A stretch of DNA of 34,763 nt from Ignavibacteriota bacterium (GTDB lineage: Bacteria > Bacteroidota > Ignavibacteria > UBA10030 > UBA6906): NCBI GenBank assembly GCA_003158475.1, contig PMJR01000016.1, positions 1-34,763 of the forward strand, written 5' to 3'. Shown piece by piece: positions 5,796-34,116 of the stretch. The position numbers and the translations under genes were made by a program. Each line of letters begins with the position of its first letter. The first letter of the stretch is position 1. The notes beneath the pieces were generated by a model. The model was not told where the DNA came from, searched no databases, and was given only the letters and a program-made list of their open reading frames with translations.

Positions 5796-5838
5796 TAGTG
5801 ACTCCATTTGGAAAAGACGAGGTTTTAGAAGAAAAGAC

Positions 5839-5866
5839 TTGACTTTTTGAAAGAATGCCCTATATT
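5839..5866 (+). promoter_or_regulatory. sigma70-like promoter towards the plus-strand cluster
   Basis: TTGACT at 5839-5844 and TATATT at 5861-5866 are separated by 16 bp, a good -35/-10 pair reading right. The expected transcription start, about 5873, falls inside the operator at 5869-5882, the classic arrangement for repression. The first gene downstream is the T9SS-exported protein at 6287, which leaves a leader of about 400 nt. In Bacteroidota the main sigma factor prefers a different consensus, which lowers confidence. Confidence 0.5.
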
Positions 5867-5868
5867 GC

Positions 5869-5882
5869 TTAAAGCGTTTCAA
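5869..5882. promoter_or_regulatory. LacI-type operator between lacI and the plus-strand cluster
   Basis: TTAAAGCGTTTCAA (TTGAAACGCTTTAA on the other strand) is a CpG-centred imperfect palindrome, with 5 of 7 pairs matching, close in sequence to the perfect site at 34344-34357. It lies 74 bp before the lacI start codon on the minus strand and across the presumed start of the rightward promoter at 5839-5866. It could therefore control both the repressor gene itself and the glycan cluster. Confidence 0.65.
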
Positions 5883-10241: not shown

Positions 10242-13136
10242 GTGAAAAAGTGCATTGCTTTGATTCTCCTCGCGCTCTGCCTCTCGGAGGCTCTGTATTC
10301 GCAGTCGCTCACCATTACTGTCCTTCCGCGGAATATCGAAGGGGTCAGTGGGACGAACGCTAATCGAATTCCGTTCGCCTTTCGAGCATCGATCGCAGGA
10401 TTGACCGCAAATGCCACCTACCGTTACATGAATCAATGCGTTCTCTCCTCGGATTTGCCCACCGCCAACGGTTCAGGGAACTGCATCTTTGCGTCTCCGT
10501 CAGGCAGTTTCGTCCGCACAACAAGTCCCGGTCTCGCTACCGTGGGGACGTACGGCGTATTTACCACGGATGCTTCGGGCAGCTACGAAGGATGGTTCAT
10601 CACGGAACCAACGGGGAATGCCCGGTTCGTTCCCGGGGGTTACGTGTTTATGCGCATCATGCTGAACGACGGCGGCATTGGGACTGTCGTTGCAACAAGG
10701 CTCACCACTGCGGATTCCGTTCGTGTGGCAAAACTGGATCCGGCTGCCGCAGACAGTGCCGGTACCGGTCTCCGTTGCACGAGCACCCTGAGCCCAAAGG
10801 ATTTCGTTTTCGTTTATGACGACACGGCCGCTACGGGTCGTCCGCTGTCTGGATCGTTCATCGAGGATGATGGCACAGCCAATACGACCGGAAACAACTA
10901 TGCCGCTTTCTATGGCACCAGCGTCAATGGCGTCAATGGCGCATTTGGTCTCGTCCTGCCGAATGTGCTGCCGAACGGCGTGCGGCGGATCGAGCAGCGA
11001 TCGCTCGCCAACGGAGCGCTGGTTTCATCGGCGACGGACGCCGACGGCATCTGGCCGAGCGGCGCGAACACGATAAATCCCTCGGGAGGCACGACTGAAA
11101 TTGTGATGGCGGGGACCGATCTCGATGCCTACACTCTCACAGTGAATGCAACGCATGGATCGGTGACACGACAACCTGATCAACCGAGATATCAGCACGG
11201 AACGAATGTTCAAATCACGGCTATTCCCGACGCCAGTTACCACTTCGTCGCATGGACCGGAGATGTACCCACGGGTCACGAGACGGACAATCCGCTTGCA
11301 GTCACGATGGACAAGAACCTGGTGATCACGGCTTCCATTGTTCTCAACACCTCTGTGCCGACACTCATCGTGCCGACATTCTCGGGCGTCACCTCCACCA
11401 CGGCGATACTTGGCGCAAAGATTGCCTCCGACGGGAATTCTCCGATCAACGAACGCGGCGTGGTGTGGTCAACGTCGCCCGGCCCGACGACGGCCGACAC
11501 CAAAGTGGTCGCATATGATACTGCGGCGATATTTACCGACACTGTCGGCACCCTGCCGGCGGGGACGTTGATTTATTTTCGCGGCTATGCGATCAATGGC
11601 ACGGGAACGGGCTATTCCCCTGACGGGACGTTCTTTACTCTCTCCAATGAACCTTCTCATCAGGCAGGGTCATTCCTTGCAACCGCAGTTTCAACAAGTC
11701 AAATCCATCTCTCATGGAGTGTTGCGTCAGGTGCGACCGGCTATATTGTTCTTCTACGGAGCGGTTTCGATCCGACGGGTCTGCCGCATGATGCGAACAC
11801 GTATGCTGCCGGCGATACGATAGGTGACGGAATCGTTGCCGCAAAAATGCCGTCGGGTGACAGCACCTCTGTCGTCATCGCCGGGCTTCGCGCGGCGGTG
11901 TGGTATCACTTTGCGATCGTACCGTACGCATGGGACGGGTCGCATTCTGCCACCATCAACTACAAAACCGACGGCGCGATTCCCAGGGATAGTGCAGCGA
12001 CATTTCCCGGCGCCCAGATGGCCGCACTTGTTCTGCCACAGTACATCCAGGGGAATAGCGGAACAAATGCCAACAGGATCCCCTTTGCCTACCGGGCCAG
12101 ATTGTCAAATCTCAATCCAAGGGCTACGTACCGTTTCGCCAACCAGGTAGTGGACCAGACTGACGTTGATTCCGCGGATGGCTCCGGGAATTGCATCTTC
12201 GTCCCGGCAACGGGTAGCTTCATACGCACATCGGGCCCGGACCTTGCAACGTCCGGCGACTACGGCGAGTTCACGGCTGACTCGGCCGGAAGCTACGTTG
12301 GCTGGTTCATCACCGAACCGACAGGAAACAGACGTTTTGTCCCGGGCAGCTTCATCTTCATGCGCATTTGGATGAATGACGGCGCATCCGGTACGGTACC
12401 CGTTACGCATCTTTCGTTACCCGATTCTGTACGAGTCCTAAAACTGGACCCGGCCGCCAGCGACAGCACGGGGACGGGAATTCGCGGCGTGAGCACAGCA
12501 TCCTCGATGGATTTTGTCTTCGCCTACGACAATATCTCAGGCAGCGGCCGCCCCATTTCAGGTTCGTTTGTCGAAAATGACGGCACCGATAACTCTCTTG
12601 CCAATCACTACGCCTCTTTCTACGCGGCGCGAGTCGATGGGATCAGCGGCGCGTTCGGTGTTGTTGCGCCCAATGCACTCCCTGCCGGCATCAGGCGGAT
12701 CGAGTGGCGCTCTCGCACGACGGGGAGCGTTGTCGGATTTGTGACCGATGCCGACGGAGTCTGGCCAAGCGGCGCGAACACGGTGAACCCTGCCGGCGGG
12801 CCAAGCGAAATTGTGCTCGCGGGCTCTGATCTCCACTGGGTCACGGCTGTCGCCGATGCTCCGACAGTCGTGAAACAATTCGCACTCTTCCAAAATTATC
12901 CGAATCCGTTCAATCCGGTAACAGAAATCAGATATCAGTTGCCGGTAGCCAGCAGGGTGTCTCTGAAGGTGTATGATCTCCTCGGAAGAGAGGTGGCCAC
13001 TCTGGTGGACCAGGTCAGAACGGCCGGATCATATACAGTGACGCTCAATGCGTCGACGCTTTCCAGCGGTCTGTATTTTTACAGGATGACTGCCGGCAGT
13101 TTCAATCAGACAAAACGCCTGATTCTCCTGAAGTAG
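10242..13136 (+). CDS. T9SS-exported multidomain protein with a duplicated ~270-aa module
   Basis: A 964-aa exported protein. It begins with GTG (AGGA nine bases upstream) and a signal peptide ending near residue 20 (ALYSQ). Order: module copy 1 (about 23-293), an InlB/Listeria-Bacteroides-type repeat (VNATHGSVTRQPDQPRYQHG, FVAWTGD, about 300-365), two fibronectin type III-like domains (about 370-480 and 485-590), module copy 2 (about 594-864), and a T9SS type A sorting domain ([42 protein letters not shown]). The module has conserved blocks SGTNANRIPFA-RA, DGSGNCIF, GWFITEPTGN-RFVPG, RVKLDPAA-DS-GTG and DADG-WPSGANT-NP. I do not recognise the module; it may be a lamin-tail or beta-sandwich type surface domain. 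It follows the xyloglucanase after 57 bp and is probably cotranscribed, so a role in substrate binding or in displaying the enzyme at the surface is plausible but unproven. Confidence 0.82.
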   Translation: MKKCIALILLALCLSEALYSQSLTITVLPRNIEGVSGTNANRIPFAFRASIAGLTANATYRYMNQCVLSSDLPTANGSGNCIFASPSGSFVRTTSPGLATVGTYGVFTTDASGSYEGWFITEPTGNARFVPGGYVFMRIMLNDGGIGTVVATRLTTADSVRVAKLDPAAADSAGTGLRCTSTLSPKDFVFVYDDTAATGRPLSGSFIEDDGTANTTGNNYAAFYGTSVNGVNGAFGLVLPNVLPNGVRRIEQRSLANGALVSSATDADGIWPSGANTINPSGGTTEIVMAGTDLDAYTLTVNATHGSVTRQPDQPRYQHGTNVQITAIPDASYHFVAWTGDVPTGHETDNPLAVTMDKNLVITASIVLNTSVPTLIVPTFSGVTSTTAILGAKIASDGNSPINERGVVWSTSPGPTTADTKVVAYDTAAIFTDTVGTLPAGTLIYFRGYAINGTGTGYSPDGTFFTLSNEPSHQAGSFLATAVSTSQIHLSWSVASGATGYIVLLRSGFDPTGLPHDANTYAAGDTIGDGIVAAKMPSGDSTSVVIAGLRAAVWYHFAIVPYAWDGSHSATINYKTDGAIPRDSAATFPGAQMAALVLPQYIQGNSGTNANRIPFAYRARLSNLNPRATYRFANQVVDQTDVDSADGSGNCIFVPATGSFIRTSGPDLATSGDYGEFTADSAGSYVGWFITEPTGNRRFVPGSFIFMRIWMNDGASGTVPVTHLSLPDSVRVLKLDPAASDSTGTGIRGVSTASSMDFVFAYDNISGSGRPISGSFVENDGTDNSLANHYASFYAARVDGISGAFGVVAPNALPAGIRRIEWRSRTTGSVVGFVTDADGVWPSGANTVNPAGGPSEIVLAGSDLHWVTAVADAPTVVKQFALFQNYPNPFNPVTEIRYQLPVASRVSLKVYDLLGREVATLVDQVRTAGSYTVTLNASTLSSGLYFYRMTAGSFNQTKRLILLK
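10308..11120 (+). repeat. module copy 1 of the duplicated ~270-aa unit
   Basis: Encodes residues about 23-293 of the 964-aa protein. Marker blocks shared with copy 2 are SGTNANRIPFAFRA, WFITEPTGNARFVPGG and DADGIWPSGANTINP. The copies are separated by about 300 residues of other domains. Boundaries are approximate. Confidence 0.85.
12021..12833 (+). repeat. module copy 2 of the duplicated ~270-aa unit
   Basis: Encodes residues about 594-864 of the 964-aa protein and matches copy 1 nearly end to end without large gaps (SGTNANRIPFAYRA, WFITEPTGNRRFVPGS, DADGVWPSGANTVNP). The divergence is large enough to show an old duplication, not an assembly repeat. Confidence 0.85.
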
Positions 13137-13253: not shown

Positions 13254-14975
13254 TCATTGCTCCGGTCGGAGCAGGGTATCGCGCGGCGCCTCCGGGTGCG
13301 TTTTGGTCCCCCTGTTCGGCAAGTTCATGGATTTGCCGAAATCCAGCCACTTGTGGGTAGTCAGCTGCGGAAACGGCGGAACCACCACGGGAAACGGGAC
13401 ATTGTGCTGGAGGGCAATCACGTCGATTCCCGTCAGCTTGATGTCATTGAACTCATCCACGTTGACTTCCACCGTCGCGCCGTACTTGTGCCTCAGGGAA
13501 TCTACATACGGGTCCAGGTACCGTGTCACCAGATCCAGTTGGTCCCCTCCAGGATTACCGATCGAGTTCAGATAGGATTGTTCCTGCCAGAGGCTGAGCA
13601 TCGCATCTTCCCACATTTCAGTATTGTGCGTCACGATCCCATAGGAATCGTACCCTCGCTTGTACGCTTCATTCGAGAGATACCGGTCGCGCACCATATC
13701 GACGATGGCCAGTTCCAACTGCCTGGCGATGGTGCTCTTTCGAAGAGTGCCTTCCCGGAACACAAGAGGGTGTTTCTCCATTTCCTGAATAACATCCTCC
13801 ATGGTCCACACGTGGCCATCAAGGCTCAAAAGAGGCGGTCCCTTCAGCATGGCAAGTTTCTGTTCTGCATCGCCGAGTGATGGAATCTTCGGGGCCCCTT
13901 GCTTGTACATGTCGGTGAGAGCGGCCTCCTCCCGCGTATCCTGAGCATTGAGGTAATATGGTGCGACAGCTTCCACAAATTGTTTGAACGCGGCGGGTTC
14001 GAACTCCAGCGTCTTTCCTGCCATCGTCCCCGTGACGAATTTCTCATACCGTTCGTCCGCCTGTTGGCGGGTCAACTCTTCCGTTACATCGTCCCAACGT
14101 TCGGTTTTCTGCTTCTCGGAGACAGCGACGTGATCTGTCCACCCCTTCACGCGAATAAAGAGATAGTGCCCTTCACCCACACGCAGAGGTCCGATGATCT
14201 GATGTGCAGTCGGTCGGTCAGTGAAGAGGGCTTTGTGAACGGCCTTGCTCTCTTTTGAACTCCAATCGACGTCTCGTCGCGGGATTGTGTCCTGTCCACT
14301 CAGTGCCTGATAGACGGCGGCAAATGAGCTTGCGGAAGTATCGATGATGCGTTTGACTGTCGAAGCGACGGAATCATTGGGAACATCGAAGTATTCGCAA
14401 TGATAGGTTCTTCCGGCAATCTCGTTCTCCCTCCTGAGCTCCGAGGAATCGAGGCGCACCCTGGCGGTACCCTCCGCGTAATAGAGCACCTCACGCATGA
14501 GCTGTTCTTTGCGTCCTTGCATCATCCGCTGAAACGAGGAGTTCCTTGTCAGTTCATTGTCCCTGCCCGCCTCAAGTGCCAGCATTTTCTCGGCAAGCAA
14601 CGAGTTCAGGACGATCTTCTTCTCAAAGCCACCGTTCCCTCTGCAGTACGATGGGCGGACGGTGTATACCGATCGGCGAATGAACTCGTCGATAAGGATG
14701 GACTTCCCGTCTATCCTTGCAATAACCCTTCCCGTGTCGGCAGGCGGAAGTCCTCGTTGGACATCCTTGACGCGATGTTTCGGCGTCGGCCGTTTTCCAC
14801 CCGGTTCTTTCTTCGTGTCTGATTCCTGAGGGTGGTGAATTTCTCCCCGGTCGGATAATTCGGCCGGGCCCGTGCCGCTGAGTGCCTGTTTTCCGCAGGG
14901 ACACCCGGCGAAGAGCGCTAATGCTACTACGCCTTTGAGCAGAGGTCTCGACACGCGTGGAATGGGGAATTGCAT
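13254..14975 (-). CDS. parvulin-like (PpiC/SurA-type) lipoprotein
   Basis: A 573-aa envelope protein, likely a periplasmic peptidyl-prolyl isomerase or chaperone anchored by lipid. The ATG at 14975 gives a short basic start, a hydrophobic stretch and a lipobox ending in FAGC, so the mature protein would begin at a lipidated cysteine near residue 24; a longer GTG-started frame to 15029 spoils this signal. After a low-complexity linker comes a SurA-like N-terminal region (RVIARIDGKSILIDEFIRR, then LLAEKMLALEAGRD) and a PpiC-like segment (about 210-310, with IIGPLRVGEGHYLFIRVKGW). The C-terminal half is helical and unlike known folds, and contains LLSLDGHVWTMEDVIQEM, a second SurA-type motif. 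It is last in a four-gene block with a PorV-like protein, a large secreted protein and a TonB-dependent receptor, so a role in folding outer-membrane or T9SS cargo proteins fits. It is convergent with the 964-aa protein gene. Confidence 0.75.
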   Translation of the reverse strand: MQFPIPRVSRPLLKGVVALALFAGCPCGKQALSGTGPAELSDRGEIHHPQESDTKKEPGGKRPTPKHRVKDVQRGLPPADTGRVIARIDGKSILIDEFIRRSVYTVRPSYCRGNGGFEKKIVLNSLLAEKMLALEAGRDNELTRNSSFQRMMQGRKEQLMREVLYYAEGTARVRLDSSELRRENEIAGRTYHCEYFDVPNDSVASTVKRIIDTSASSFAAVYQALSGQDTIPRRDVDWSSKESKAVHKALFTDRPTAHQIIGPLRVGEGHYLFIRVKGWTDHVAVSEKQKTERWDDVTEELTRQQADERYEKFVTGTMAGKTLEFEPAAFKQFVEAVAPYYLNAQDTREEAALTDMYKQGAPKIPSLGDAEQKLAMLKGPPLLSLDGHVWTMEDVIQEMEKHPLVFREGTLRKSTIARQLELAIVDMVRDRYLSNEAYKRGYDSYGIVTHNTEMWEDAMLSLWQEQSYLNSIGNPGGDQLDLVTRYLDPYVDSLRHKYGATVEVNVDEFNDIKLTGIDVIALQHNVPFPVVVPPFPQLTTHKWLDFGKSMNLPNRGTKTHPEAPRDTLLRPEQ

Positions 14976-15087
14976 AGAAGGGTTGTCGTCCAATGTTCTC
15001 AATGGAAGCAACGGGGAGACGATGAACACGTGTATGCCGTGTCTACCGCCTCCCCGATCGCTGGATGGTACGGGAGAAGGAATAGCC

Positions 15088-16155
15088 CTAGAACAGCAAA
15101 CTTACACCAAGAGATTGAACGTTGCCAAGAATGCCCATCGTGCGGTAGGCATAATCGACTTTCAAATCATGATCCCCGAACAGGTCGGTCTGCACCCCGA
15201 TCCCGTAGGTCATGGAATACTGTGAATCCGGCATTCCGAGCGCTTTATACCCGGCGCGGAGAGACAACTTGCCGAGGTCCTTGAGCGTGAGCGAGTATTG
15301 CGCCCCGACGTTGACAGATTCGCTGTTGTTATTCGGATGCAAGGCATCGACGGAGACGACAATCTCGTGAGCATCGGTGAACAAAGGTGTGAACGAGGCG
15401 CCCATGCGAAAAATCAACGGCAGCTCCCAATCCTGCGTTGCGTATCTTCCCGGCGCATTGCTGTAGTTGCCGGCTTCGGTGGGGGCCGCATCGATCGGGA
15501 CAAGGAGATCGAGACCTTCATACCGGAGAGGCGTTCCATAGTTGGAGATGCTCATTCCGATATCAAGCCCGTGCTTGTTTCCGCCTTCAGGAGAGAAGAA
15601 GCCCGTCTTGATGATGACGCCGAGGTCGAAGGCAACCGCAGTGGCGGACTCATGCCAGATCGACGAGTTGATCATCTTGGCGGTCACTCCGAAGGAAAAC
15701 CAATCCACGAGATTTCTCGCGAAGGAGAGACTGACGGCAAGATCCTTGGCTGAGAACTGCTCACCCGTTCCCTCCTGCATGGCCACGGTCGTGACTTCCA
15801 TGTCTCCGTAGTTCATCAGTATGAGGCCGCCGCCAATCGTGCCAATATCCGGCACGACGATGCCGAACGACGCGAATGTCGCGTTCATGCCGACAATCCA
15901 TGGTTGTGTGACGAACATGACCTCCGTTCTCTCCATCTGGGCGAGGCCCGCGGGGTTCCAATAGACTGCGGAGGCATCGTGCACAAGGCTCACGTAGGCA
16001 TCGCCCATCGCGATGCCCGCCGCCCCATAACCGATTTCCAGAAAATCGGCCGCCGTACTGCCGACGCGCGTCGGCTTCTGTGCATAAGCGGGGATCGACA
16101 TGATCATACACGCCGCCAGCACGACCATTGTTCTGTTGGATCTTTGCAGTTTCAT
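15088..16155 (-). CDS. PorV/PorQ-family outer-membrane protein
   Basis: A 355-aa beta-barrel protein of the PorV/PorQ (UPF0164-like) group, part of or related to the type IX secretion shuttle that brings cargo to the cell surface. A signal peptide (MKLQRSNRTMVVLAAC to AYAQ) is followed by the family start GSTAADFLEIGYGAAGIAMGDAYVSL and the signature ASAVYWNPAGLAQM. Alternating hydrophobic strands follow, and the last residues, GVSLLF, fit a barrel C-terminus. GGGAGAG lies about nine bases before the ATG. It lies 28 bp downstream of the 1208-aa secreted protein and 112 bp upstream of the parvulin lipoprotein. Whether it is the core PorV of the cell or a dedicated paralogue for this locus cannot be told from the window; genomes of this group often carry several paralogues. 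Confidence 0.88.
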   Translation of the reverse strand: MKLQRSNRTMVVLAACMIMSIPAYAQKPTRVGSTAADFLEIGYGAAGIAMGDAYVSLVHDASAVYWNPAGLAQMERTEVMFVTQPWIVGMNATFASFGIVVPDIGTIGGGLILMNYGDMEVTTVAMQEGTGEQFSAKDLAVSLSFARNLVDWFSFGVTAKMINSSIWHESATAVAFDLGVIIKTGFFSPEGGNKHGLDIGMSISNYGTPLRYEGLDLLVPIDAAPTEAGNYSNAPGRYATQDWELPLIFRMGASFTPLFTDAHEIVVSVDALHPNNNSESVNVGAQYSLTLKDLGKLSLRAGYKALGMPDSQYSMTYGIGVQTDLFGDHDLKVDYAYRTMGILGNVQSLGVSLLF

Positions 16156-16183
16156 AGTGATTTCTCTCCCTGTGGCCCGATGA

Positions 16184-19100
16184 TCACTTAATCACCGCGA
16201 ACTTGCCGAGTTTTTCTTCTCCGGTGACATTGGATTTTACATCGTACACGTATATCCCAGCGGCGATCTCCAAGCCTTCCTTCGTCAGCATGTCCCACTG
16301 CACAGTGCCGTTGTCCGGCGGATTGTTGACATCGATCTGACGGACGAAAACGCCGCTCGATGTGAAGATCTTGATGCTGCATCCTGCAGGGATGTGTGTG
16401 AAGAGCAACACCCTCCTCTGGTTCAGCCCCTGGTTGCTGATGTACTGTTCCATGGTGTTTGTGACGAGGTACGGGTTGGGGACAACCTTGATTCGTTTCA
16501 TGTCGCCGCTGAGCTGTAAAGCATTCGCGGTACTCTGCGTGTGCACGGTAAAGGTGATGGAATCATTCAACGCGCTCACGATTTTCAGTCTGTACACATC
16601 TCCCGGCTTCGGCTGTTCGCTCTGCAGTCGCATCCCAAACAGCGTCGCGGGGAAGACCCCCTGATTGGCGATCCGGGACGGGTAGCCTACAAGAACAGTG
16701 TCAATGTCGGGGTCGTAGACACCGTTGCCGTTCGCGTCTTCCACGATAGCGTCGAGCTCTTCAAATCCCCGGAATCCGGCCGGGTCCCGGACATTCTTGT
16801 TGATGATATGAAATGGGAACGACTTCCCAAGCAGTATTTTGTTGGACTGGGCGATCTGGCGGCCATTGGCATCCAGAATCGCGGCAAGGTTTTTGCTGGT
16901 TGTTTTTGACCTGTACGGCGGGTCCACCGTCGTGTCGACAAAGACGATATTGTAGTCGTAGGCATAGTACGGCATGATGATTGAATCGACTTGAATGCCG
17001 ATTGGAGCATTTCCTGTCTGCCACTTGCTGAGTGCTGTGTCCGGAGTCGGAAACGCTGCCTTCGGCTGTATGAAGTACTGAAGCCCGTCGACGACGCTTG
17101 TGGTAATACCGCTGCTTGCAATCCTGGTGTACGGCGTTGTACCGATAGTGGCTTTTTCCCAGTTAGCCTGCAAGCGGCTTGTCGGAGTTTCCGCATAGAG
17201 TAGCGTGTTGCCCGCTGTAATGTCGGAGATGGAATATCCCTTTGTCGTGAAAAATCCCTCCCTCTTCGGACGTACGGCCGGCACAGTCTTCCACGCGACA
17301 ACGGCCGTATCGAACTTCATCGAGTAGACATGATCCGGCTTCACAATATCGGAATTGAAAACCGACGCCGTGATGGTGGCATTCGACTGAATGTCCTGCG
17401 GGTCGGTGATCGTCAGGTTCGGAGGCGTATACCCCGCCGCATTCTGATGCGGTGTCACGATTTGGACGTTCTGTCCAACCCCAATGACGTTTTCGCTTTC
17501 GTCCAGACTGATGATCGTATTGCTCTCCGAGGGAGACATGGAGAGACCCAGCGCCCCGACGCCCTGGATGCCGTAATCATACGCGACGAGCGCGTAATAA
17601 TACGTGCGGCCGTTCTGTACGGTGTTATCCACAAAATAGTGTCGGAGGCCGGTATCGTCACCAAGATAGTATTCGAGTCCGTTGACCGAAGTGAAACTCA
17701 CGAACCCCTTGATGGAATCAACGAGGTCGCACTGAAAAATCGGCAGCTTGCCCGCGGGGTTGCCATACCCATCGCGAAGAACCTCGGCATCCTGGAAATG
17801 TTTGTCGGTCGACCTGTAGAGCTTGTAGCCCTCGAAATCGTTTGCGCCCCCGAGGAAGGGCTCGCGCGTGAGTTTGTCGGACCGGTCATCCCACGAGAGG
17901 TACACCTTTCCATCGGCGGCCTTGGCCGTCAACGTGGGAGTGAGCGGCGCCTGGGCAAACCGGTAATCGGATTGATAGACGAGTTCCACCATTCGCAACT
18001 TCTGGTACAGAGAAGGTGCCGGATGATGGTCCGCGACGTCATTCAAACCGATCAAAGGCTCGTACGAATTGACATTGGACATCGAGAGCCTCTCGGTTCT
18101 GCCATGGGCCAATCGGAAAACGCCGGATCCGAATGAGACGTAGAGGTTTGAAGGATTTGGGAACTCCTGAAGCAATCGGGGAGCGGTAAGTGTGTCGTAG
18201 ACATTCTGGTCATTCTTGAGCTGTGCAGCACCTGTCTGTTGAGGATGCGGAAACATCGAGAATGAGGTGAGCCCAAGCATGTCCGATTCATGCACGTCGG
18301 TAATCGCAAAATCCGGCTCTGCGCCGACGCCTTCCAGGAAGTCCGGCCTGTGGTTGCACTCGGTGCCGTCTGCGTCGGGCCCAGTGTAGTTAAGATCGCT
18401 CGGACCAACGCCGTCGAGTCCAACGTCATCGCCGGCATCTTCACCTGGATCGTACCTGCCATTACCGTTCGCGTCTTTGCCATCTCTCCAGTCGCCGTCC
18501 TCGTCACCCGGCCACCAGAGTCCCTGGGCGACCGCCGGGACCTGATCGAGGCTTTTGTAGCCGAAGTATTTGAGGAATTTGCTTGTGTCATGGGAAGCCA
18601 CGAACGCTGCAATGACCGCGGCTTTTCCCTTAATTGGGCCCGAGAATCCTCCCCAGGGACCTTCGGCGGGGTTGTCGCGGCGCTCATCAATCATGCCGTC
18701 GTGGTCATTGTCGATTCCATCGTTCGCCACCCCAGGACTCTCCAGAAAAGCCCAGCCGCTCACAGGCGGCGTTCCACCCCCAAAGCCGGCTCCGCTCAAC
18801 GACCACGTGTAGGTGAATGCTTGAAGTGTGTCAAAGAATCCGATTTGATCTTCTGAGGCGGAGGTGGGGGACTTATTGCCGTTGGCGCAGTCGAGGTAAA
18901 AACCAAACACTCCTCGAGCCAGATCGTAATCGGAAATATTCGAAACGTTGTATTCAAAAAAGACGGCATCGCGGGTTTGTTGATTATTCCACTGATATGC
19001 CCTGACTTCAGCCCGCAAGCCCAGGCCGCCCCAGGCGTCTCCACGCTGAATAGTAATATCGTTCGGGCTGAGATCGCCTACGTAATGGCCCGGGCGTGGA

Positions 19101-19810
19101 TAGAACTGTATTTTCAAAGGAGGCGCCGTCGGATCCTTGGGCAGGAGGTTCTCCTGGTCCTGTGCGTCATTTGCAGCCCAATAGGCTTCCAGGTCGGCAT
19201 ATTTTACTCCTCTGCCAAACCGACCATTCCACTCACCCGGCCACTTCTTCTCCAAACCGCGGGATGGCCATCCACCCGAAGGCCATGAATCAGGACGGTT
19301 GCTGATGGCCGCGTAGTCGCTCAGCCTGTTGAAGTACCCAAACACCGGATAGAATCCCCATTCAATGGATGAGCCCAGCGGCTGATCCATGAAGTTGGGC
19401 TGAATGGAAGAACTTTGCGCACACCACAAGGTATCCAGCAGCCCCTGGCTTCCGAGAGACTGGATGTCCGCTTCATCCGTAATCGGAATGGAATCGAAGG
19501 GACATGCGGGACACTTCTTGATAAATACCATATTGCCGACGATGAGATTGAAGCTGTCGAACGTGTTCAGTCCGGTGGCGTCATTCGGCCAGAGAGAGAC
19601 GAGCGGACTTGGCCACCCCCCGAAAGAGACTTTATTGCTGATCTGGAGGGAGACCCTGTTGCCGTTCATCAATCCCAACCGGGAAGCGCTGGGATCGCCC
19701 GCCTCATCCGTCGGTCCTTCATATGGTCTGCTTTGAGCATTCAGATCCGCTACCATGATCGGAATGAGCGCTATCAGCAGAGCCTTAATAGTGGAATTGC
19801 GAAAGAGCAT
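16184..19810 (-). CDS. large secreted protein with fibronectin-like domain and FlgD-like C-terminus
   Basis: A 1208-aa exported protein of unknown function. The ATG at 19810 has AAGGAG six bases upstream and opens a signal peptide (MLFRNSTIKALLIAL to LNAQS); an upstream in-frame ATG at 19858 would overlap the previous gene. Visible features are Asp-rich calcium-type loops (DNDHDGMIDE near 370 and DGKDANGNGRYDPGEDAGDD near 450, thrombospondin type 3 or EF-hand-like), a fibronectin type III-like domain (about 640-780: GKVYLSWDDRSD, FEGYKLYRST, YYYALVAYDYG), a beta-rich region, and a C-terminal domain beginning IKVVPNPYLV. It ends with IKIFTSSGVFVRQIDV, GTVQWDML, GIYVYDVKS and KFAVIK, which resembles FlgD Ig and T9SS sorting domains without the NPFNP core. 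It lies 25 bp after the TonB-dependent receptor stop and is surely cotranscribed, so it may sit on the receptor as a surface partner, in the way SusD sits on SusC. That role is inference only. Confidence 0.8.
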   Translation of the reverse strand: MLFRNSTIKALLIALIPIMVADLNAQSRPYEGPTDEAGDPSASRLGLMNGNRVSLQISNKVSFGGWPSPLVSLWPNDATGLNTFDSFNLIVGNMVFIKKCPACPFDSIPITDEADIQSLGSQGLLDTLWCAQSSSIQPNFMDQPLGSSIEWGFYPVFGYFNRLSDYAAISNRPDSWPSGGWPSRGLEKKWPGEWNGRFGRGVKYADLEAYWAANDAQDQENLLPKDPTAPPLKIQFYPRPGHYVGDLSPNDITIQRGDAWGGLGLRAEVRAYQWNNQQTRDAVFFEYNVSNISDYDLARGVFGFYLDCANGNKSPTSASEDQIGFFDTLQAFTYTWSLSGAGFGGGTPPVSGWAFLESPGVANDGIDNDHDGMIDERRDNPAEGPWGGFSGPIKGKAAVIAAFVASHDTSKFLKYFGYKSLDQVPAVAQGLWWPGDEDGDWRDGKDANGNGRYDPGEDAGDDVGLDGVGPSDLNYTGPDADGTECNHRPDFLEGVGAEPDFAITDVHESDMLGLTSFSMFPHPQQTGAAQLKNDQNVYDTLTAPRLLQEFPNPSNLYVSFGSGVFRLAHGRTERLSMSNVNSYEPLIGLNDVADHHPAPSLYQKLRMVELVYQSDYRFAQAPLTPTLTAKAADGKVYLSWDDRSDKLTREPFLGGANDFEGYKLYRSTDKHFQDAEVLRDGYGNPAGKLPIFQCDLVDSIKGFVSFTSVNGLEYYLGDDTGLRHYFVDNTVQNGRTYYYALVAYDYGIQGVGALGLSMSPSESNTIISLDESENVIGVGQNVQIVTPHQNAAGYTPPNLTITDPQDIQSNATITASVFNSDIVKPDHVYSMKFDTAVVAWKTVPAVRPKREGFFTTKGYSISDITAGNTLLYAETPTSRLQANWEKATIGTTPYTRIASSGITTSVVDGLQYFIQPKAAFPTPDTALSKWQTGNAPIGIQVDSIIMPYYAYDYNIVFVDTTVDPPYRSKTTSKNLAAILDANGRQIAQSNKILLGKSFPFHIINKNVRDPAGFRGFEELDAIVEDANGNGVYDPDIDTVLVGYPSRIANQGVFPATLFGMRLQSEQPKPGDVYRLKIVSALNDSITFTVHTQSTANALQLSGDMKRIKVVPNPYLVTNTMEQYISNQGLNQRRVLLFTHIPAGCSIKIFTSSGVFVRQIDVNNPPDNGTVQWDMLTKEGLEIAAGIYVYDVKSNVTGEEKLGKFAVIK

Positions 19811-19835
19811 GATACTCTCCTTTTCGACTATGGTA

Positions 19836-22646
19836 CTAGAACATGACCTCGAAGCCAACCTTGATGGAGCGGGGGTTGGTGAATGAGTTCGGGTCGTTAA
19901 TCCAGTCGTAAATCGTACTGAAGTTGCTTGTGTACTTTGCTATATCCGTTGGAAGAAGGATCTGCTGGTTGGCTCTCCCGGTTGTCGTGTTAACCGCCAC
20001 CTCGTTGAGTGCATCAAACAGATTATAGACGAGGAGCGTGAGCCGTGTTCTGGCCGGTCCAAACGACCAGAGATTTACATAGGCGTTGAGGTCGACTGAA
20101 AAGAGTGTGGGTCTTGTCGCATCGTTCGGCTGCGGGGTCACGAGCGCCTGCTGGCTGGTGGCAAGCGGGACCCAACCGTACGGCGTGCCGCTGTCGAAAT
20201 GGCCTGTGATGGAACCACCGAACTCCTTGTGTGCGTAGGCGAGGGATGCGTTCAGCGTATGCCGCTGATCCCAGTCCATGGGGATGAGCACGTTGACTGG
20301 ATCGAGCTTCGATCCCTCGCGGGTAAAAGTGTAGGTTGGACTGTTCGCGTTGCCGCGTGTATATTGAAGAGTGTAATTCACGGAAGCGGAAAACTCGCCC
20401 GCGAGATAATCGTACTTGAGCTCCAATCCCCGCGCGTTCCCATAATCCTTGTTGCTGTACAATCCGTAGTGGATGGCATTAAATGTCTCCACTGTTACGG
20501 CGCTCAGCAAATCATAGATATCCCTGTAAAACACCGCGACCTCGCAACTCATATGCGGATTCAGCTGTTGCCACAGGCCGGCCTCGTACTGAATCGTTTT
20601 CTGTGGTTTCACGAGCGGATTGCCCATAACCGTCTGGTAATCGCCGAGCACGGTGTGCCAATAATCCGTGTACAATGCGTACAACGGCGGCATCTGGAAA
20701 AAATGCCCGTAGGAGAACCTGAGCAGCGCCGTCTCGGCCAGTTTGTACGAGATGCCGAACCTGGGGCTGAGTTGCCGCTTCGCGGGTGCTCTGAGGTACA
20801 CGCTCATCTTCTCCGGGTTGTCCGGATATGTAAGGGCATTTGACGGATTTCGAAGCTCGGAAGGATACGATGCGTTTGGGACGAAGCAATCGTACCGCAG
20901 GCCGGCATTGATGACCATATAATCGAACTCCATCTTGTCCTGCACGTAGGCGGAGTATTCCAGAGGCTTCACTACGTAGATGTCCGCACCTGAGGTTATC
21001 CCGGTGGGGAGGGAAGGCTTGTAGTAAAGATATGTTCTCATGCCGGTTACCGGGTCGTCATAAGAGCGGCTCTCATCACTGCCGTACGAATTGAGCACGG
21101 TCGTGTTGAATCGGTGAATGCCGTGCTTTGTATAGTCGAACCCGGACTTGATAGTATGTTGCTTGGTCGCCTGCCACGTTCCGTCAATCTTAAGATTGTA
21201 GTCCTCGATCCAATTCTGACTCCATGATTTGTCCTGACCTCCGGTGGAAAAGCCCGGGTTGTACGATGTCTGGGCGGCATACTGATCGGACACATACGCA
21301 TAGACAGGCAGTCCGACCCTGTTGATGCTGTCTCCCCCCGCAACGTTCTTCAGCGTCTGCATCGGGTTTTCGAACAGGTAGTAGGCGCTCCAGTTCTTGA
21401 TGTAGCTGGCCGAGGCTTCGTAGAAAAGGGAGTTCGAAAGAGTGTGGTTCAATTTGGCTGAAAGAAGCTGGGAAGTTGAATAGTTCGTCGGTACTCCTTC
21501 CGGGTTGAACTCGTAGAAGTGATTGTAACTCTTCCCTTTGTAGTAATTGTACGTATAGTCGACCGAAGCACGAATCTCCTGAAGGGGATTCAAGGAAAGC
21601 TTGCCGTACGCGGTGGCTGTGGTATTGTATTCCATCGCCACGACTGCATTGTCCCCTGTGTGATCCGAATGCCACGCGGTGGGGTCCGCGGAGGGCCAGT
21701 TGCTGTAGTTGTTGGGCATGAAGCGTCTGATCCCGTTGCGCGCGCCAACATTGTCCTGATACCGTCCGTTGACGAGGAATGAGAGGTCATCCTTAATAAC
21801 CGGCCCCTCGAGAAAGAGCTGATAATCTTTGCTCCGGGGTACATCCTGAAGATTCGAAACGGTAAGACCGGTGAAATTGTACGTGTGCGGCGTAGCAAAA
21901 TTGCTCGCACTGATGGATCCGGAACCCCGGAACTCATTGCCTCCATTTTTTGTGACGTTGTTCACGACGCCGCTCATCGCGTTGCCATACTCGGCGTTGA
22001 ATGTCCCCGTAATGACCTCGACCTCCGAGATGGCGTCATTTTCCACATTGACCGATCGTCCAAGGGCGTATGCGTCCTGCACCTTGATACCATTGAGAAG
22101 ATACGCCACTTCGTCCGCGCGCCCGCCACGGAAATGACCGCGCACCACGCCTGCCTGCAGCGCCACCACCTGATCGACATTCTCCACGGGCAGCGCCTTT
22201 ATTTGATCGGACGTGATATTTCTGACCGAGCTGGTCTGGTCCTTTTTTTGCTCGATGAGGGGTGCGGTGACGACGACCTCCTGCCCTTCGATGACACGCT
22301 CTGACAGTCTAAAATCCGCCACCGTTGTCCTGTTGACCGACACTACAAGAGATTGCATAACCACCGGTTCGTACCCGATCAAGGTGGCGCGCAATCGGTA
22401 TGTCCCCGGGGGAATGTTGAGGATGTAATACTCGCCGGCCTTATCGGTCACGGCACCGAGGCTTGTCCCGACGACCATGACATTCACCGCAATCAGGGGG
22501 TCGCCGGATTTCCTGTCGAGGATTTTGCCGGAAAGTTTCCCCGTTGTCTGGGCAACACCCTCTGTCGCAAGCAAGGAAAGGAGAACCACCACGATGCTCC
22601 ACCCTCGTGCTTTCGATCGCCATGTGAATCGGTTTTCTGTTGGCAT
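19836..22646 (-). CDS. TonB-dependent receptor with carboxypeptidase-regulatory-like N-terminal domain
   Basis: A 936-aa outer-membrane receptor. The ATG at 22646 gives a signal peptide (SIVVVLLSLLATEGVAQ); a longer frame to 22772 lacks one at its start. Residues about 34-115 form a CarboxypepD_reg-like domain (GKLSGKILDRKSGDPLIAVN, GEYYILNIPPGTYRLRATLIGY). The plug domain follows with ITSDQIKALPVENVDQVVAL, HFRGGRADEVAYLLNGI, EVEVITGTFNAEYGNAMSGVVN and VTKNGGN, then a long barrel ending in an aromatic residue (KVGFEVMF). This is the style of large Bacteroidota/Ignavibacteria receptors that import oligosaccharides, peptides or metal complexes with TonB energy. No SusD-like lipoprotein follows; instead the next genes are the 1208-aa secreted protein, a PorV-like protein and a parvulin lipoprotein. 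The cargo is unknown; hemicellulose oligosaccharides are suggested only by the neighbours. A perfect 16-bp palindrome lies 25 bases before the start codon. Confidence 0.93.
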   Translation of the reverse strand: MPTENRFTWRSKARGWSIVVVLLSLLATEGVAQTTGKLSGKILDRKSGDPLIAVNVMVVGTSLGAVTDKAGEYYILNIPPGTYRLRATLIGYEPVVMQSLVVSVNRTTVADFRLSERVIEGQEVVVTAPLIEQKKDQTSSVRNITSDQIKALPVENVDQVVALQAGVVRGHFRGGRADEVAYLLNGIKVQDAYALGRSVNVENDAISEVEVITGTFNAEYGNAMSGVVNNVTKNGGNEFRGSGSISASNFATPHTYNFTGLTVSNLQDVPRSKDYQLFLEGPVIKDDLSFLVNGRYQDNVGARNGIRRFMPNNYSNWPSADPTAWHSDHTGDNAVVAMEYNTTATAYGKLSLNPLQEIRASVDYTYNYYKGKSYNHFYEFNPEGVPTNYSTSQLLSAKLNHTLSNSLFYEASASYIKNWSAYYLFENPMQTLKNVAGGDSINRVGLPVYAYVSDQYAAQTSYNPGFSTGGQDKSWSQNWIEDYNLKIDGTWQATKQHTIKSGFDYTKHGIHRFNTTVLNSYGSDESRSYDDPVTGMRTYLYYKPSLPTGITSGADIYVVKPLEYSAYVQDKMEFDYMVINAGLRYDCFVPNASYPSELRNPSNALTYPDNPEKMSVYLRAPAKRQLSPRFGISYKLAETALLRFSYGHFFQMPPLYALYTDYWHTVLGDYQTVMGNPLVKPQKTIQYEAGLWQQLNPHMSCEVAVFYRDIYDLLSAVTVETFNAIHYGLYSNKDYGNARGLELKYDYLAGEFSASVNYTLQYTRGNANSPTYTFTREGSKLDPVNVLIPMDWDQRHTLNASLAYAHKEFGGSITGHFDSGTPYGWVPLATSQQALVTPQPNDATRPTLFSVDLNAYVNLWSFGPARTRLTLLVYNLFDALNEVAVNTTTGRANQQILLPTDIAKYTSNFSTIYDWINDPNSFTNPRSIKVGFEVMF

Positions 22647-22800: not shown

Positions 22801-25089
22801 CTACTTCATCAACATTAACTTAATCGTCTTCGCATAGACCTGTCTTCCGGAAGCGTCGGCGGCGATCATTCGGGCGAAGTACATCCCGCTCGCGGCGTTC
22901 TGAGCGTTCCACGCGACATTGTGCTGTCCTGCCGCCATCATGCCGCTTGCCAGTACCGCCACCTTGCGACCGAGAATATCGTAGATATCCAGAGATACCA
23001 TACTGTTCTCCGACAATTGATATCTGATCTCTGTGCTCGGATTGAATGGGTTCGGGTAGTTCTGTGTCAGCGAGTACCCAAGGGGAGATGTGCGTGTACC
23101 GGCGATGCCAGTGAACTTGTTGCTGAAGAGTTTCACGTTATCTACGCCAATCCACGAATCGCCGTTTGGACTGATATTGTCAAACGAGATGCCGAGTGTG
23201 CGGCCGATGCAGGCCGGATGGTCGGCCGCGTGGAAGGAGATCGATTGATTCACCATCGCGCTTACCACCGCGTCCTGCCCCACCGCAAGGGGGATTTTCG
23301 CCCCCGCATTGTCCAGATAGAACAACGCCAGTTCGCAGAGAGTGGCTCCCCACGTCGAGCAAACATCGGCGGTCATCGTGACGTCATCGTCTGCAAGGAT
23401 CACATGACTTGTAATCTGATACACCGATGTGTCGCTTCCCCTAAGATATGCCGACCAGGTTCCATCAGTGGCGTTCCCAAACTGTTCGACGCCGCTATCG
23501 AATGCCGGCGCATCGCTGCTCCACCCGGGGATATCATAGACGAGTCCGGTCCAGTTTGGATCGGCGCACACCCCATCCCAACCTTTCACTTTCTCCGTCC
23601 CCGGCAGCTCAAAACTCGGATTGACAATCTGAATGTTCGAGGTGTCTCTGGGGTGTGTGATGTTGTCTTGAAGCTTCGGTATGTTGACGTCAAGCCAGGC
23701 AATCCTGCGAGCGATCCAATCCTTCAGTCGAGTGACTTCTTCGGCGTACGACTGCGACGGCGGCTCGACTTCGGGCGCTGCGTTGGGAGCGGAAATCGGC
23801 CAGAGAGCAAAATGGCGTTGCTGCGCATCGTTCACTGAAGCTGCAACCGAGTCAATGTACCTGTTGAACGTAGCGAGAGAGAGCAAGCCAGTGCGGAGAA
23901 ACTGATACCGGGCGATCAATTGATTCGTGAATGCACTATCCTGCAGCAGCCGTTTGTGCCAGTCGGGAACGGCGTACCCAGGATTCAGGTCGTTGGTTTT
24001 GTATCCCCATCCAGAACCGTCAGTGTTGGCGAAGATATACTCGGTGATATCCTTCCATGCCCAATCGAAGTCCCACACAGGACCGGCACGCAGCAAGCTG
24101 TCCTTGTCGTCCCTGTCCTTGTAGAAGAAACGGCTCTTTTTGTATCCGTCGACATTGCGCGACACTTCGCTGAGAATGAAGTAATCAATGAACGACGGGA
24201 CGTCGACATACCGGTGGTATCCGAGGGACGAGTCGGTGAAATGAGGACCGTACAACGATCCTTCGGCATCTCTTATGAAATGTTGAATGTACGTCTTCTG
24301 TGCAGGCACGATGTCGGTCGGCTTCGGAAAGACGTAATCATAGTGCACCTGTCTGTCGGGGTAACCGAGCGGGGGATAGGAGGATATCCAATTATCATCC
24401 GTGCCGTAGTAGTCGACGCTGATGATATACCCTCCCGTGACCGCGACTCCGGTGCTGTCTCCTGTGGCCATCTTTGAGATGTCGACGCGATTCTTGTCAG
24501 GTTTGATCTTCTCGCAGAACACGTAGATGCCGCGGTACTCCCCGTTGAGCATTACCTCACATAATCGTGCCCGCGTTGCATAGTGTCCCATGTTGCGGAA
24601 CCAATCAAACGAAATCAGGTTTCGCATGAGCGACTTGTCATCGTAGTTCGATGTCAAAATCCAGTCGTTCTCCTTTGGCATTCCGAGGAGCGAAACGTTC
24701 AGATTATTGCCCAAGGCATCGCGCGTTTCCAGGCCATACGGTTGCTGAGGAAATGTCGCAGAAAAATGACCACGCACTTCGATGCCGATGTATCCGTCAT
24801 ACTCCGCATCCGGGTCTGTCGGATGATTGCGTACCCCCGGCGCATGATCGATGATCCTCATAGTGGCCGTGATCTTGGTCCCATAGGGGATCGTTTGTCC
24901 GCCGGTGGTGATCATCACGATCGGTAAATTGGTCGAATCCAGGGAAACCGCAAGCTCGCCGAGGGACCCTGTGGACGCAGAAGCATCCGCCGCCAAGAAA
25001 GAAGAATCCTCCGATTCGCCTTCCCCGTATGTTTCCGTACCGGCACACAGAAGAACGGCGCCGCAGCACGCGATGGCAGTCAGCCTCAT
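22801..25089 (-). CDS. T9SS-exported CotH-kinase-family protein with C-terminal module
   Basis: A 762-aa exported protein. The ATG at 25089 has GGAGG seven bases upstream and opens a signal peptide (MRLTAIACCGAVLLC). Residues about 60-460 are a CotH kinase-like domain (IGIEVRGHFSATFPQQPYGLE, MPKENDWILTSNYDDKSLMRN, EVMLNGEYRGIYVFCEKIK, GPVWDFDWAW with the Asp pair expected at the metal site, then LLQDSAFTNQLIARY). CotH of Bacillus is an atypical secreted protein kinase; secreted homologues occur in cellulolytic bacteria. Next is one copy (about 490-660) of the module seen twice in the protein at 6287-7741 (NPSFELPGTEKVKGWDG, DSGVEQFG, IGVDNVKLFS). Last is a T9SS type A domain ([42 protein letters not shown]). 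It lies between the glycosidases and the receptor block. Substrate and true activity are unknown; phosphorylation of surface proteins or sugars is only possible. Confidence 0.88.
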   Translation of the reverse strand: MRLTAIACCGAVLLCAGTETYGEGESEDSSFLAADASASTGSLGELAVSLDSTNLPIVMITTGGQTIPYGTKITATMRIIDHAPGVRNHPTDPDAEYDGYIGIEVRGHFSATFPQQPYGLETRDALGNNLNVSLLGMPKENDWILTSNYDDKSLMRNLISFDWFRNMGHYATRARLCEVMLNGEYRGIYVFCEKIKPDKNRVDISKMATGDSTGVAVTGGYIISVDYYGTDDNWISSYPPLGYPDRQVHYDYVFPKPTDIVPAQKTYIQHFIRDAEGSLYGPHFTDSSLGYHRYVDVPSFIDYFILSEVSRNVDGYKKSRFFYKDRDDKDSLLRAGPVWDFDWAWKDITEYIFANTDGSGWGYKTNDLNPGYAVPDWHKRLLQDSAFTNQLIARYQFLRTGLLSLATFNRYIDSVAASVNDAQQRHFALWPISAPNAAPEVEPPSQSYAEEVTRLKDWIARRIAWLDVNIPKLQDNITHPRDTSNIQIVNPSFELPGTEKVKGWDGVCADPNWTGLVYDIPGWSSDAPAFDSGVEQFGNATDGTWSAYLRGSDTSVYQITSHVILADDDVTMTADVCSTWGATLCELALFYLDNAGAKIPLAVGQDAVVSAMVNQSISFHAADHPACIGRTLGISFDNISPNGDSWIGVDNVKLFSNKFTGIAGTRTSPLGYSLTQNYPNPFNPSTEIRYQLSENSMVSLDIYDILGRKVAVLASGMMAAGQHNVAWNAQNAASGMYFARMIAADASGRQVYAKTIKLMLMK

Positions 25090-25221
25090 AGGTGTACCTC
25101 CAACGAGGTTCTCGTTTCGTATGTGTATGTGCTCCGCAGCCCGCAACAATCACCTTGGGCGAGGCGAAGGAGGACTCTACGTAACGGACAGTGCAATGGC
25201 ATTGTTGACCCCCGATGCCAG

Positions 25222-25250: not shown

Positions 25251-27960
25251 TTACTTGATCAGCACCAAATGCTTCGTCTGTGTAAAACCTTCCGTTTGCA
25301 GTCTGTAATAGTATATACCGCTCGACAAGTGGGCAGCATCGAGAGTCACGGAGTAATCCCCGGCATTTTGATGACTGTTCACAAGCGTCTCGATCTCCTT
25401 TCCCAGGACATCGTAGATCCGTAACGTCACCTGCGCAGCAACCGGCAACCGGTAGCTGATCACTGTTGTCGGGTTGAAAGGATTAGGAAAATTCTGGCGG
25501 AGAAAATAATCGCGCTCCGGGTACGATGATCGTTGAACGGTTGTGGTGCCGGATTGCCGAAAGTCCACCCTGTCCGGAACAACCCAGGAGTTGGTGCTGC
25601 TTGCATTCTTTGTGCCGGTCACCCGGATTTTGAAGAGATGATCGCCGGGCGGGAGAACGGAGCTCGTCCACATCAACTGGTTTCCCATGCGGGTTGCGGC
25701 GTAGAAATCGACGAGGGTTTCACTGCCGCCATCGATCGAAATGGCGCCGATGCCATGCCCGGGATCTTCGACGCCGTAGAATCGTATCTGAGTCCCGTTG
25801 AATTCGACTGCCGCCTCGTCATCGGTTGTGTTGTCCCATGAATTGCGTCTGGTCATAGAGATCCGCGCCGCATCCCGTGCAGTGTGACCATCCCGAGCCA
25901 GACGTACGAGAACGAAGTCGAACCCGCTCCCCATCATGGCGTCGTCAATGGTGGTCCAATCGCTTCCCGCAGTCTTGCATGCACGAAGAAATTGTCGAAT
26001 TCCGCCTGTTGCCATTTGCTCACAAGCAACCCCACTTGGCCGGATGCATAGGTACCGTCATTTGACCGATCGTTGCCAACACAGAATCCACAAATGCCTG
26101 GACGGTGTCGGCATTGAAGCTGAGTGAAATTTTGTGCCAGCTGTTCAATCCTATTGTCGCCGTCCCCGCTCCAAGCTGCGTATCGACTCCCCCTGCGGTC
26201 TCCTTGAACAGGCTCCACGTTCCATTGCTCGTCACACGCAGGTGATAACCCTGTGAGGCGCCGGGAGACGATTGCGATTGCGTCCCTAGTCGGCCGATCA
26301 GATCAACGTAGCCAGTTTGCTCCAGCAACACATCGGTGCTCACCGAGTAGTTGGACCATCCCGGATCTCCTACAACGGCCAGCGGCGGTGTTGGAGAGCC
26401 GCCGGGCCACTCTAGAGGAGCCAGATTGATCATCTGCCGCAGGCACCGGCCGGTGCGTCCGCCATGGCAGCTGTCAACCTCGAATGCGCCTTGGATTGCA
26501 TCAAAGTAGCTTGGGATTGCTCCGATGGCATACTGGTCAAAATTCTCAGTGTACGGCAGGCCCATCGTTGACGGCGATGGAGGGGAGGTTGTCCCTTTCC
26601 CCTGACCTGTCGTCGTGCTGATCGTATACACAAAACCCGGCTGAAGGGTGACGTTAAATCTCCCTCCGACCGGGAGAATATCGCTGAGGTGAACAAAGAA
26701 GTCGTTGGAATTTGGCGAATTGACATTTGAAGCCCACACATGGACCGTGTCAGTGGAAAGGCCTCCTACGACGGCAAACGTGACAGTCTGCGGTGTCGCG
26801 GCGTCCATCGTTTCTACGATCGTGCTATAATCCTTTGCATTGGTCGACTTTAGCGTCACATAGCTGCCGTTCGTTCGGACCCCCCCCAAATACCCGCAGG
26901 AGACATCCACATAATGCCAGCCGACCTCCGCAAATTGGGCGGTGTGTGCCATAACCCAGATGCTCTTTGCGACATAGTAATACCCGGACCACGGTTGATC
27001 GGCAAGCATGAGCCCACACCCGTAATAGGGGAGCGTGCGATACCATGCTGCGATGAGGCTCCAATTGATATACGCGGTCATCCTGCTGTCGATATAGTCC
27101 CGGTTCAGCGCGCGGGCAAGGGCTGTTGCGCCGGCATCGTAGTTTTGGGACCCGTGTTCGCTTCCCCATACGGGAATGCCCAGACCTTCCGCGACTGAAG
27201 TGTAGGTATTGTCGGAACAGTTCTGTTCTCCTGAAAGATAGCCGCATGGATAGTGGACACCCATGATGTCCACAGCAGCCTTGAATGCCGCATCGCTTGA
27301 CAAATCACCCGCGATGTTCCACCCATTGTCCGCCGCCACCACCTTCGTCGTCAAGCCATTGTTCAGCAGCGCCGTCTTCAGGTTTTCATACCACGTCTTG
27401 TCCCAGCCTGATTCGTTCCACCCGCCGATGTAGTCGATATGAAGATCATGGTCTGATTGCGCGTGCTTGATCCAACTTATGATATAGTTGATATTATCCT
27501 GTGACCAGAATCCGCCCGTAAACCATCCCGGTGAACCCCACTCCAGGCCATAGAGTTTGATATTCGGGTTCCGTGATTTCGCCTGCTCCATCAGCCACCA
27601 CTCATATCCACGAGTGAAATTCGAGTCGGTCCGTGAGCGCATGTGGCTCGCCTCGGCCCCGTTGGTGCTATTGGCATCGCCGCCGATCTCCACTTTCAAT
27701 ATTTGCAGGCTGGCGCCATAATGAGGCAGAAAGAGGTAGTCCAATATCTCATCCCGCTGCTGTGCCGGATAATCCCACAGCAAGCGCGATGTCCCGCCAC
27801 CACCACTCAAGCCCCCAATCCCGTCAAAAGCTCGACCGGAACCCGTGCCCGAGATAACGATGGTCGTGCCCTGCGCCATCGCCTGTGGAATGGCAATGGG
27901 GAGCAGCTGCATACTCATGAATGGCAGCAACACTGCCATGGCTCTCGTGCTATGGTTCAT
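25251..27960 (-). pseudogene. GH59 beta-galactosidase (galactocerebrosidase type), broken by clustered frameshifts
   Basis: The first half (27960 to 26020) has a signal peptide (MNHSTRAMAV to AMAQG) and a clear GH59 domain: FDGIGGLSGGGGTSRLLWDY, HYGASLQILKVEIGGD, RGYEWWLMEQAK. The acid/base Glu is in IGGWNESGW (near 183) and the nucleophile in VWGSEHGSQ (near 268), so the catalytic part is intact. A lectin-like domain follows and is cut at GCL-stop (26020). Its missing end, SNDGTYASGQVGLLVSKWQQ and AEFDNFFV, lies in another frame (about 26055-25980). The next domain resumes in a third frame (TAGSDWTTIDDAMMGSG), jumps again (SGSGWSHCTGCGADLYDQT, about 25912-25846) and returns (SWDNTTDDEAAVEFNGTQI) to run to the T9SS sorting domain (QNFPNPFNPTTVISYRLPV). 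About three single-base losses and one gain within 215 bp explain this. As read, the enzyme would be made without its last domains and sorting signal. It could be decay or an assembly fault. The intact enzyme would release terminal beta-galactose. Confidence 0.87.
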
Positions 27961-28046
27961 AGCGACCCCGCCTCTCAATCGCCGCTCCCACGAATGCATC
28001 CTGCGATAGAACATGCCGCGCATCATTTCTCATGAGCAACAGGTCC

Positions 28047-34116
<6,070 letters not shown>

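Follow-up and report, generated by a model that had tools for sequence, protein, structure and literature searches.

A recurrent TonB receptor, large secreted protein and PorV-family barrel gene unit as a candidate nutrient importer in Ignavibacteria and related phyla

Gene content of the locus

The window, meaning the whole 34,763-nucleotide stretch that we analysed, is an entire contig (C130) of a 3.75 Mb draft genome of an Ignavibacteriota bacterium (153 contigs, 97.9% complete). An earlier note, made from the sequence alone, had described a block of four envelope genes here. The four open reading frames lie where it placed them, in a single direction on the minus strand (a strand it had not given), and the intergenic gaps that it reported, 25, 28 and 112 bp, are exact given ATG starts. 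The features considered below are as follows.

19836-22646, minus strand: TonB-dependent receptor (TBDR), 936 aa, with plug, barrel and CarboxypepD-reg domain matches
16184-19810, minus strand: BIG, secreted protein of 1208 aa, proposed to be the partner at the cell surface; its family has no name
19733-19810, minus strand: BIG signal peptide, residues 1-26 (...ADLNAQ|SRPYEG), from sequence reading
17561-17947, minus strand: fn3-like segment of BIG, about residues 622-750, with FEGYxLYRSTD strongly conserved in alignments
16187-16498, minus strand: C-terminal domain (CTD) of BIG, about residues 1105-1208 (VVPNPY...GKFAVIK), a putative PorZ-like type-A T9SS CTD
15088-16155, minus strand: module PorV, 355 aa, a PorV/PorQ-family barrel matching NF033709
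13254-14975, minus strand: putative SurA/PpiC-type parvulin lipoprotein, 573 aa, with an LFAG|C leader and PF13145 matches in its family; optional module member
22801-25149, minus strand: CotH-domain secreted protein with a T9SS tail, next gene upstream of the TBDR, same direction
26020-28026, minus strand: GH59 (galactocerebrosidase-type) hydrolase, same direction; context gene
28047-32132, minus strand: GH2 LacZ-type beta-galactosidase with F5/8C domains and a T9SS tail, same direction; context gene
4737-5882, minus strand: regulator of the LacI family belonging to the locus around the module; context gene
2297-4750, plus strand: second GH2 glycoside hydrolase; context gene

The four genes of the module close a nine-gene unidirectional run, which begins with a 648-aa T9SS-tailed protein and continues through the LacZ-type GH2, the GH59, a short T9SS-tailed protein and the CotH protein. 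GGAG-type ribosome-binding sites precede both BIG and PorV; promoter predictions did not exceed those in shuffled sequence, and terminator predictions barely did. The locus has the look of a beta-galactoside glycan-utilisation locus without SusD. Within this bacterial glycan locus the GH59 adjoins the LacZ-type GH2, which carries PASTA-like segments as well as its F5/8C domains. Separately, a 964-aa T9SS-tailed protein (10242-13136, plus strand) contains an internal duplication in which residues 32-298 are 61% identical to residues ~602-868.

The receptor, the PorV-family barrel and the parvulin

The TBDR exceeds the cut-offs for both the Plug (PF07715) and TonB barrel (PF00593) families, has its CarboxypepD-reg-like domain at the N-terminus and carries a TonB-box-like motif, QEVVVTA; an in-frame ATG at 22772 offers an alternative start. 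Its 70 bits fall far short of the 368 that the SusC/RagA model TIGR04056 requires. The module PorV passes the PorV/PorQ superfamily model NF033709 (PorV_fam; 209.7 bits, cut-off 90), fails the PorV equivalog NF033710 (78.9 bits against 250) and scores below the PorQ and PorV2 equivalog cut-offs. Its closest solved relative is the T9SS PorV (PDB 6h3i, E 2.1e-6); the FadL/Toluene_X family is matched weakly, and the BamG model NF053685 matched marginally in one module PorV only. Since the canonical PorV is encoded on contig C124, together with SprA, and PorQ and a PorV2-like protein are encoded elsewhere in the genome, we rejected the possibility that the module barrel is the T9SS's own PorV or PorQ. 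SprA itself appears in this genome as two adjacent open reading frames of ~1,300 and ~1,100 aa (C124, L129:1035-8019, minus strand), either because the gene is split or because the assembly carries a frameshift there. Two further PorV-family genes stand in tandem on C146 (L033:7891-9808), outside any TBDR-BIG module.

The window parvulin has no Pfam match of its own, the PPIC-type domain included, while 21 of 28 aligned members of its family match Rotamase_2 (PF13145). Its structure model is poor overall, with a better core at approximately residues 185-285 that has a parvulin-like topology, and this low-confidence model matches PrsA, SurA and PEB4 structures.

The large secreted protein and its link to T9SS

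The leader of BIG, read from the sequence, has no lipobox cysteine, and BIG relatives have similar leaders. DxDxDG-type loops occur at residues 367, 446 and 1025, so that the description of a large secreted protein with calcium-type loops and an fn3-like segment stands; FnIII structures are among the fold matches, which low TM-scores make weak. The window protein matches no Pfam or NCBIfam family, and 30 diverse members yielded almost exclusively CTD-type family matches; no solved relative was found other than the PorZ CTD. The monomer model, built with 13 sequences, is too poor (pLDDT 53) to reveal a ligand site or interface, and we used only its C-terminal and FnIII matches. In two BIG members there is a match to NF052337, an NCBIfam model of the phage tail tube (best E 2.8e-7), which probably reflects an Ig-like fold resemblance. 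A second BIG-like gene lies ahead of the TBDR in six loci (L074, L075, L077, L078, L080 and L081).

The variant sorting domain suggested for this protein corresponds to a C-terminal domain that shows a relationship to T9SS tails while scoring below Pfam and TIGR cut-offs. An ending of the type G[KR]FA[VI][IVL]K is kept in 57 of 58 BIGs, and hhalign comparison of the BIG C-terminus with the genome's own T9SS tails, a family with 97 matches in this genome, gave a probability of 93% (E 3e-7). The best relative of the CTD is PorZ, whose model matches 7 of 30 BIGs (best E 1.9e-8; PDB 5m11, E 0.011). In nearly all members, however, the domain falls below the PF18962 and TIGR04183 cut-offs, which counts against the explanation that we favour. 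SprA is present in all 138 genomes with a strong BIG match (E<1e-30), and BIG in none of 92 SprA-lacking genomes, a correlation that is confounded by clade, most of the SprA-lacking genomes listed being of one family.

Two precedents bear on how such a domain may be held. PorZ and PorU retain their CTDs, the barrels that bind them being PorQ and PorV, and it has been proposed that a cognate PorV-like barrel protects a CTD against cleavage (PMC10202324). Type B cargo is anchored by PorP/SprF barrels, as in the SprF-SprB and PorP-PG1035 pairs (PMC9143113).

Conservation and co-divergence of the module

A scan of named genome contigs recovered 13 BIG loci from Ignavibacteriae, Neomarinimicrobiota, KSB1 and Calditrichota at 42-46% identity, with a single exception at 92% in the Ignavibacteriae MAG fen_1260, the nearest named relative found. 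Nearly all complete loci among these carry TBDR-BIG-PorV, with the parvulin added in four. Across the phylum, the BIG profile matches 173 of 395 sampled genomes, 138 of them strongly. From the best BIG matches we sampled 40 phylum loci, chosen independently of their neighbours: BIG adjoins PorV in all 40 (39 by script and one, L087, read by hand), the TBDR lies within the cluster in 39, and the exact order TBDR-BIG-PorV was counted by script in 34. L087 has the same order on the opposite strand, and one short open reading frame intervenes in L092. The same three genes also occur in permuted orders, as BIG-PorV-TBDR in L055, BIG-TBDR-PorV in L063 and rearranged again in L070 and L071. The parvulin is present in 24 of the 40 loci, and all four genes stand in the window's order in 17. 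The proposal that the four genes are conserved together was thus upheld for TBDR-BIG-PorV, both within the phylum and in further phyla of the FCB group, but only in part for the parvulin, which is found in ~60% of loci. Its absence from about 40% is a further point against our favoured explanation, and the parvulin is an optional part of the module.

Pairwise distances among 58 triads are correlated for BIG-PorV (0.82), BIG-TBDR (0.92) and PorV-TBDR (0.92); the highest value reached in 999 permutations was 0.20. One copy from the source genome (L031) is nearest to a Rhodothermus locus (L127) in all three trees, so that subtypes cross classes as a unit, and paralogues from the same genome are seldom nearest each other. 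Co-divergence is in part shared species history; the placement of paralogues in these trees argues for something beyond it.

Copies in the source genome and association with uptake genes

Searches with the BIG and PorV families found six TBDR-BIG-PorV copies in the source genome: that of the window, those on C128, C150, C24 and C108, and a sixth split across C75 and C76. Counted from coordinates, these modules hold 6 of the genome's 18 plug-domain receptors. Because of the six copies and the conservation across phyla, the association of the four genes exceeds chance. A LacI-type regulator lies immediately upstream of the C150 copy and also upstream of the C75/C76 copy, in which a parvulin follows PorV, and the C24 copy is followed by GH94-like and glucoamylase-like proteins. 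The C128 copy (L027:12943-16454) leads instead into S51-type and carboxypeptidase-like peptidases in place of glycosidases; this counts against the favoured explanation and suggests that some modules take up peptides.

The 75 proteins downstream of modules include 13 solute-binding proteins of the SBP_bac_1/8 type together with 21 ABC permeases, and a MalEFG operon frequently lies directly downstream. Within 0.59 Mb of module loci we counted 14 sugar-type solute-binding proteins (SBPs) by hand from coordinates, where 0.60 were expected from 151 in 148.9 Mb of the 39 host genomes (23-fold, P 5e-15). Recurrent neighbours are GH94, GH130, GH2, GH9, GH3, GH5, glucoamylase, CBM9 and LacI. In Rhodothermus marinus DSM 4252, modules are found on the chromosome and on plasmid pRMAR01 (RMAR_RS14120/14115/14110, annotated as "TonB-dependent receptor, hypothetical protein, PorV/PorQ family protein"), and the module is therefore testable in a cultured organism. 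One DSM 4252 module, at ~0.39 Mb, runs through TBDR, BIG, PorV, an SBP and two permeases and on to a GH130-like gene; a near-identical locus of another Rhodothermus (L110) has LacI upstream, and another Rhodothermus locus reads LacI-TBDR-BIG-PorV-CBM9-GH10. The R. marinus xylan locus (PMC6987092; TBDR Rmar_1070 and hypothetical proteins) was considered as a module and rejected, its DSM 4252 TBDR being distant and without BIG, and a Roseithermus xylan transcriptome paper (PMC7409140) does not mention a TBDR or PorV.

Relationship to SusD

A search of the source genome for SusD (PF07980/PF14322) found none. The suggestion that the 1208-aa protein takes the place of SusD survives as an analogy, BIG being unrelated to SusD, the source genome having none, and modules having sugar ABC importers, glycoside hydrolases and LacI as neighbours. 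The stronger suggestion, that the module replaces SusC/SusD in this lineage, holds locally and not elsewhere. In the window's class, 7 genomes have both BIG and SusD, 50 have BIG only (of 57 with BIG), 13 SusD only, and neither is present in 28 (odds ratio 0.30, P 0.023). Outside this class, 64 of the phylum's 81 BIG genomes have both and 17 BIG only, with 128 genomes having SusD only and 88 neither (odds ratio 2.6). Strict replacement is thus rejected, SusD being present in 71 of 138 BIG genomes, and the two are not exclusive, so that we see in the module an alternative to SusCD that operates side by side with it. In the window's class it is probably the main one.

Proposed mechanism and alternative explanations

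On balance we favour a reading of the module as an importer driven by TonB: T9SS would deliver its surface subunit, a PorV-like barrel reserved for this task would hold that subunit in place, and a parvulin would act as chaperone in those loci that have one. The TBDR would be the transport barrel of an outer-membrane nutrient-uptake module. BIG would be exported through the genome's T9SS by means of its PorZ-like CTD and would remain on the cell surface, where it would bind ligand for the receptor in the manner of SusD/RagB for SusC/RagA; the PorV-family barrel would take up the CTD and anchor BIG, uncleaved, beside the receptor. Where present, the parvulin may serve as a periplasmic chaperone for BIG, for both barrels or for all three. 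Ligand reaching the periplasm would pass to the glycosidases or MalEFG-type ABC importer often encoded beside the module. For the locus in the window, a glycan containing beta-galactose is the probable ligand, the GH59 there suggesting a beta-galactoside substrate. For the broader proposition, that such modules form a separate FCB class of TonB importer in which the surface subunit is a T9SS substrate docked permanently through its uncleaved CTD on a dedicated PorV-like barrel, we regard the case as evenly poised.

One may postulate instead that BIG is a T9SS-exported surface adhesin or cell-wall scaffold carried on a PorV-like barrel, with the TBDR importing independently and the genes merely co-regulated. 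The size of BIG, its fn3-like segment and its calcium-type loops do resemble those of adhesins, and SprB/SprF is a cargo-barrel pair of just this kind; the TBDR, however, is present in 39 of 40 loci, its divergence follows that of BIG more tightly (r 0.92) than does that of PorV (0.82), and SBP and ABC genes are enriched beside modules, and we therefore consider this reading unlikely. It is decidedly improbable that the module is a device for secretion or assembly, in which the TBDR-like barrel and PorV together provide a platform for exporting or anchoring BIG and uptake is no part of the task: PorV-family and FadL barrels do participate in export and BAM machines and 60% of loci include a parvulin, yet the window TBDR has a typical plug and a TonB-box-like motif, a MalEFG operon often follows immediately and all carriers already have SprA. 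We give still less credence to PorV as a channel of the FadL kind, unrelated to T9SS, through which hydrophobic ligands diffuse, with TBDR and BIG importing another ligand; the weak FadL/Toluene_X match is set against a closest solved relative that is the T9SS PorV, a neighbouring gene that always encodes a T9SS-type CTD and the finding, in the genomes sampled, of BIG only where SprA is present. Ordinary co-location of envelope genes without common function, conceivable in a genome so rich in them (as its T9SS-tail matches indicate), is already refuted for TBDR-BIG-PorV by cross-phylum conservation, permuted orders, multi-copy paralogy and co-divergence, and its probability is negligible.

Significance and comparison with known systems

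To our knowledge, SusCD/RagAB is the sole well-described architecture for glycan or peptide uptake by Bacteroidota-type TonB receptors. If the importer reading is true, the module would be a second, unrecognised nutrient importer design, and T9SS and PorV paralogues would build nutrient transporters, beyond secreting enzymes and adhesins. It would explain the feeding of abundant environmental Ignavibacteria, Rhodothermia, Neomarinimicrobiota, KSB1 and Calditrichota, would assign a task to many orphan PorV-family barrels, and would make BIG a marker with which to annotate glycan loci overlooked by SusD-based methods. Each component, whether TonB receptor, PorV-family barrel or T9SS CTD, belongs to a known kind; we believe that their fixed combination is undescribed, and the open-licence papers that we searched contained no prior description of a TBDR-BIG-PorV unit.

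Several known systems resemble the module in part. The accessory set of the Bacteroidota BAM machine (the FadL barrel BamG, BamH and PPIs) likewise brings together a FadL-type barrel, a big surface protein and PPI lipoproteins (PMC12578637, PMC12611786), whereas the module is without BamA, is multi-copy and sits with nutrient loci. In the PorZ-PorQ and PorU-PorV attachment complex, a surface protein has a retained type-A CTD bound by a PorV/PorQ barrel (PMC10202324), as we propose for BIG; the module proteins are nonetheless separate paralogues, and BIG is PorZ-like in sequence in its CTD only. The SprB-SprF and PG1035-PorP pairs share with it a large secreted protein with a C-terminal T9SS-type domain beside a dedicated PorV/PorP-class barrel (PMC9143113), but theirs is type B CTD cargo, while the BIG CTD is PorZ/type-A-like and the module barrel is of the PorV family; moreover, the module nearly always comes with a TBDR and is tied to nutrient genes instead of gliding. 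SusC/SusD and RagA/RagB, nutrient importers of Bacteroidota, also pair a CarboxypepD-reg TBDR with a large surface partner, occur in multiple copies and lie near glycosidases and regulators. The module differs from them in a receptor that scores far below the SusC/RagA cut-off, in a partner unrelated to SusD, without a lipobox, about twice its size and ending in a T9SS-type CTD, and in having a third conserved gene, a barrel.
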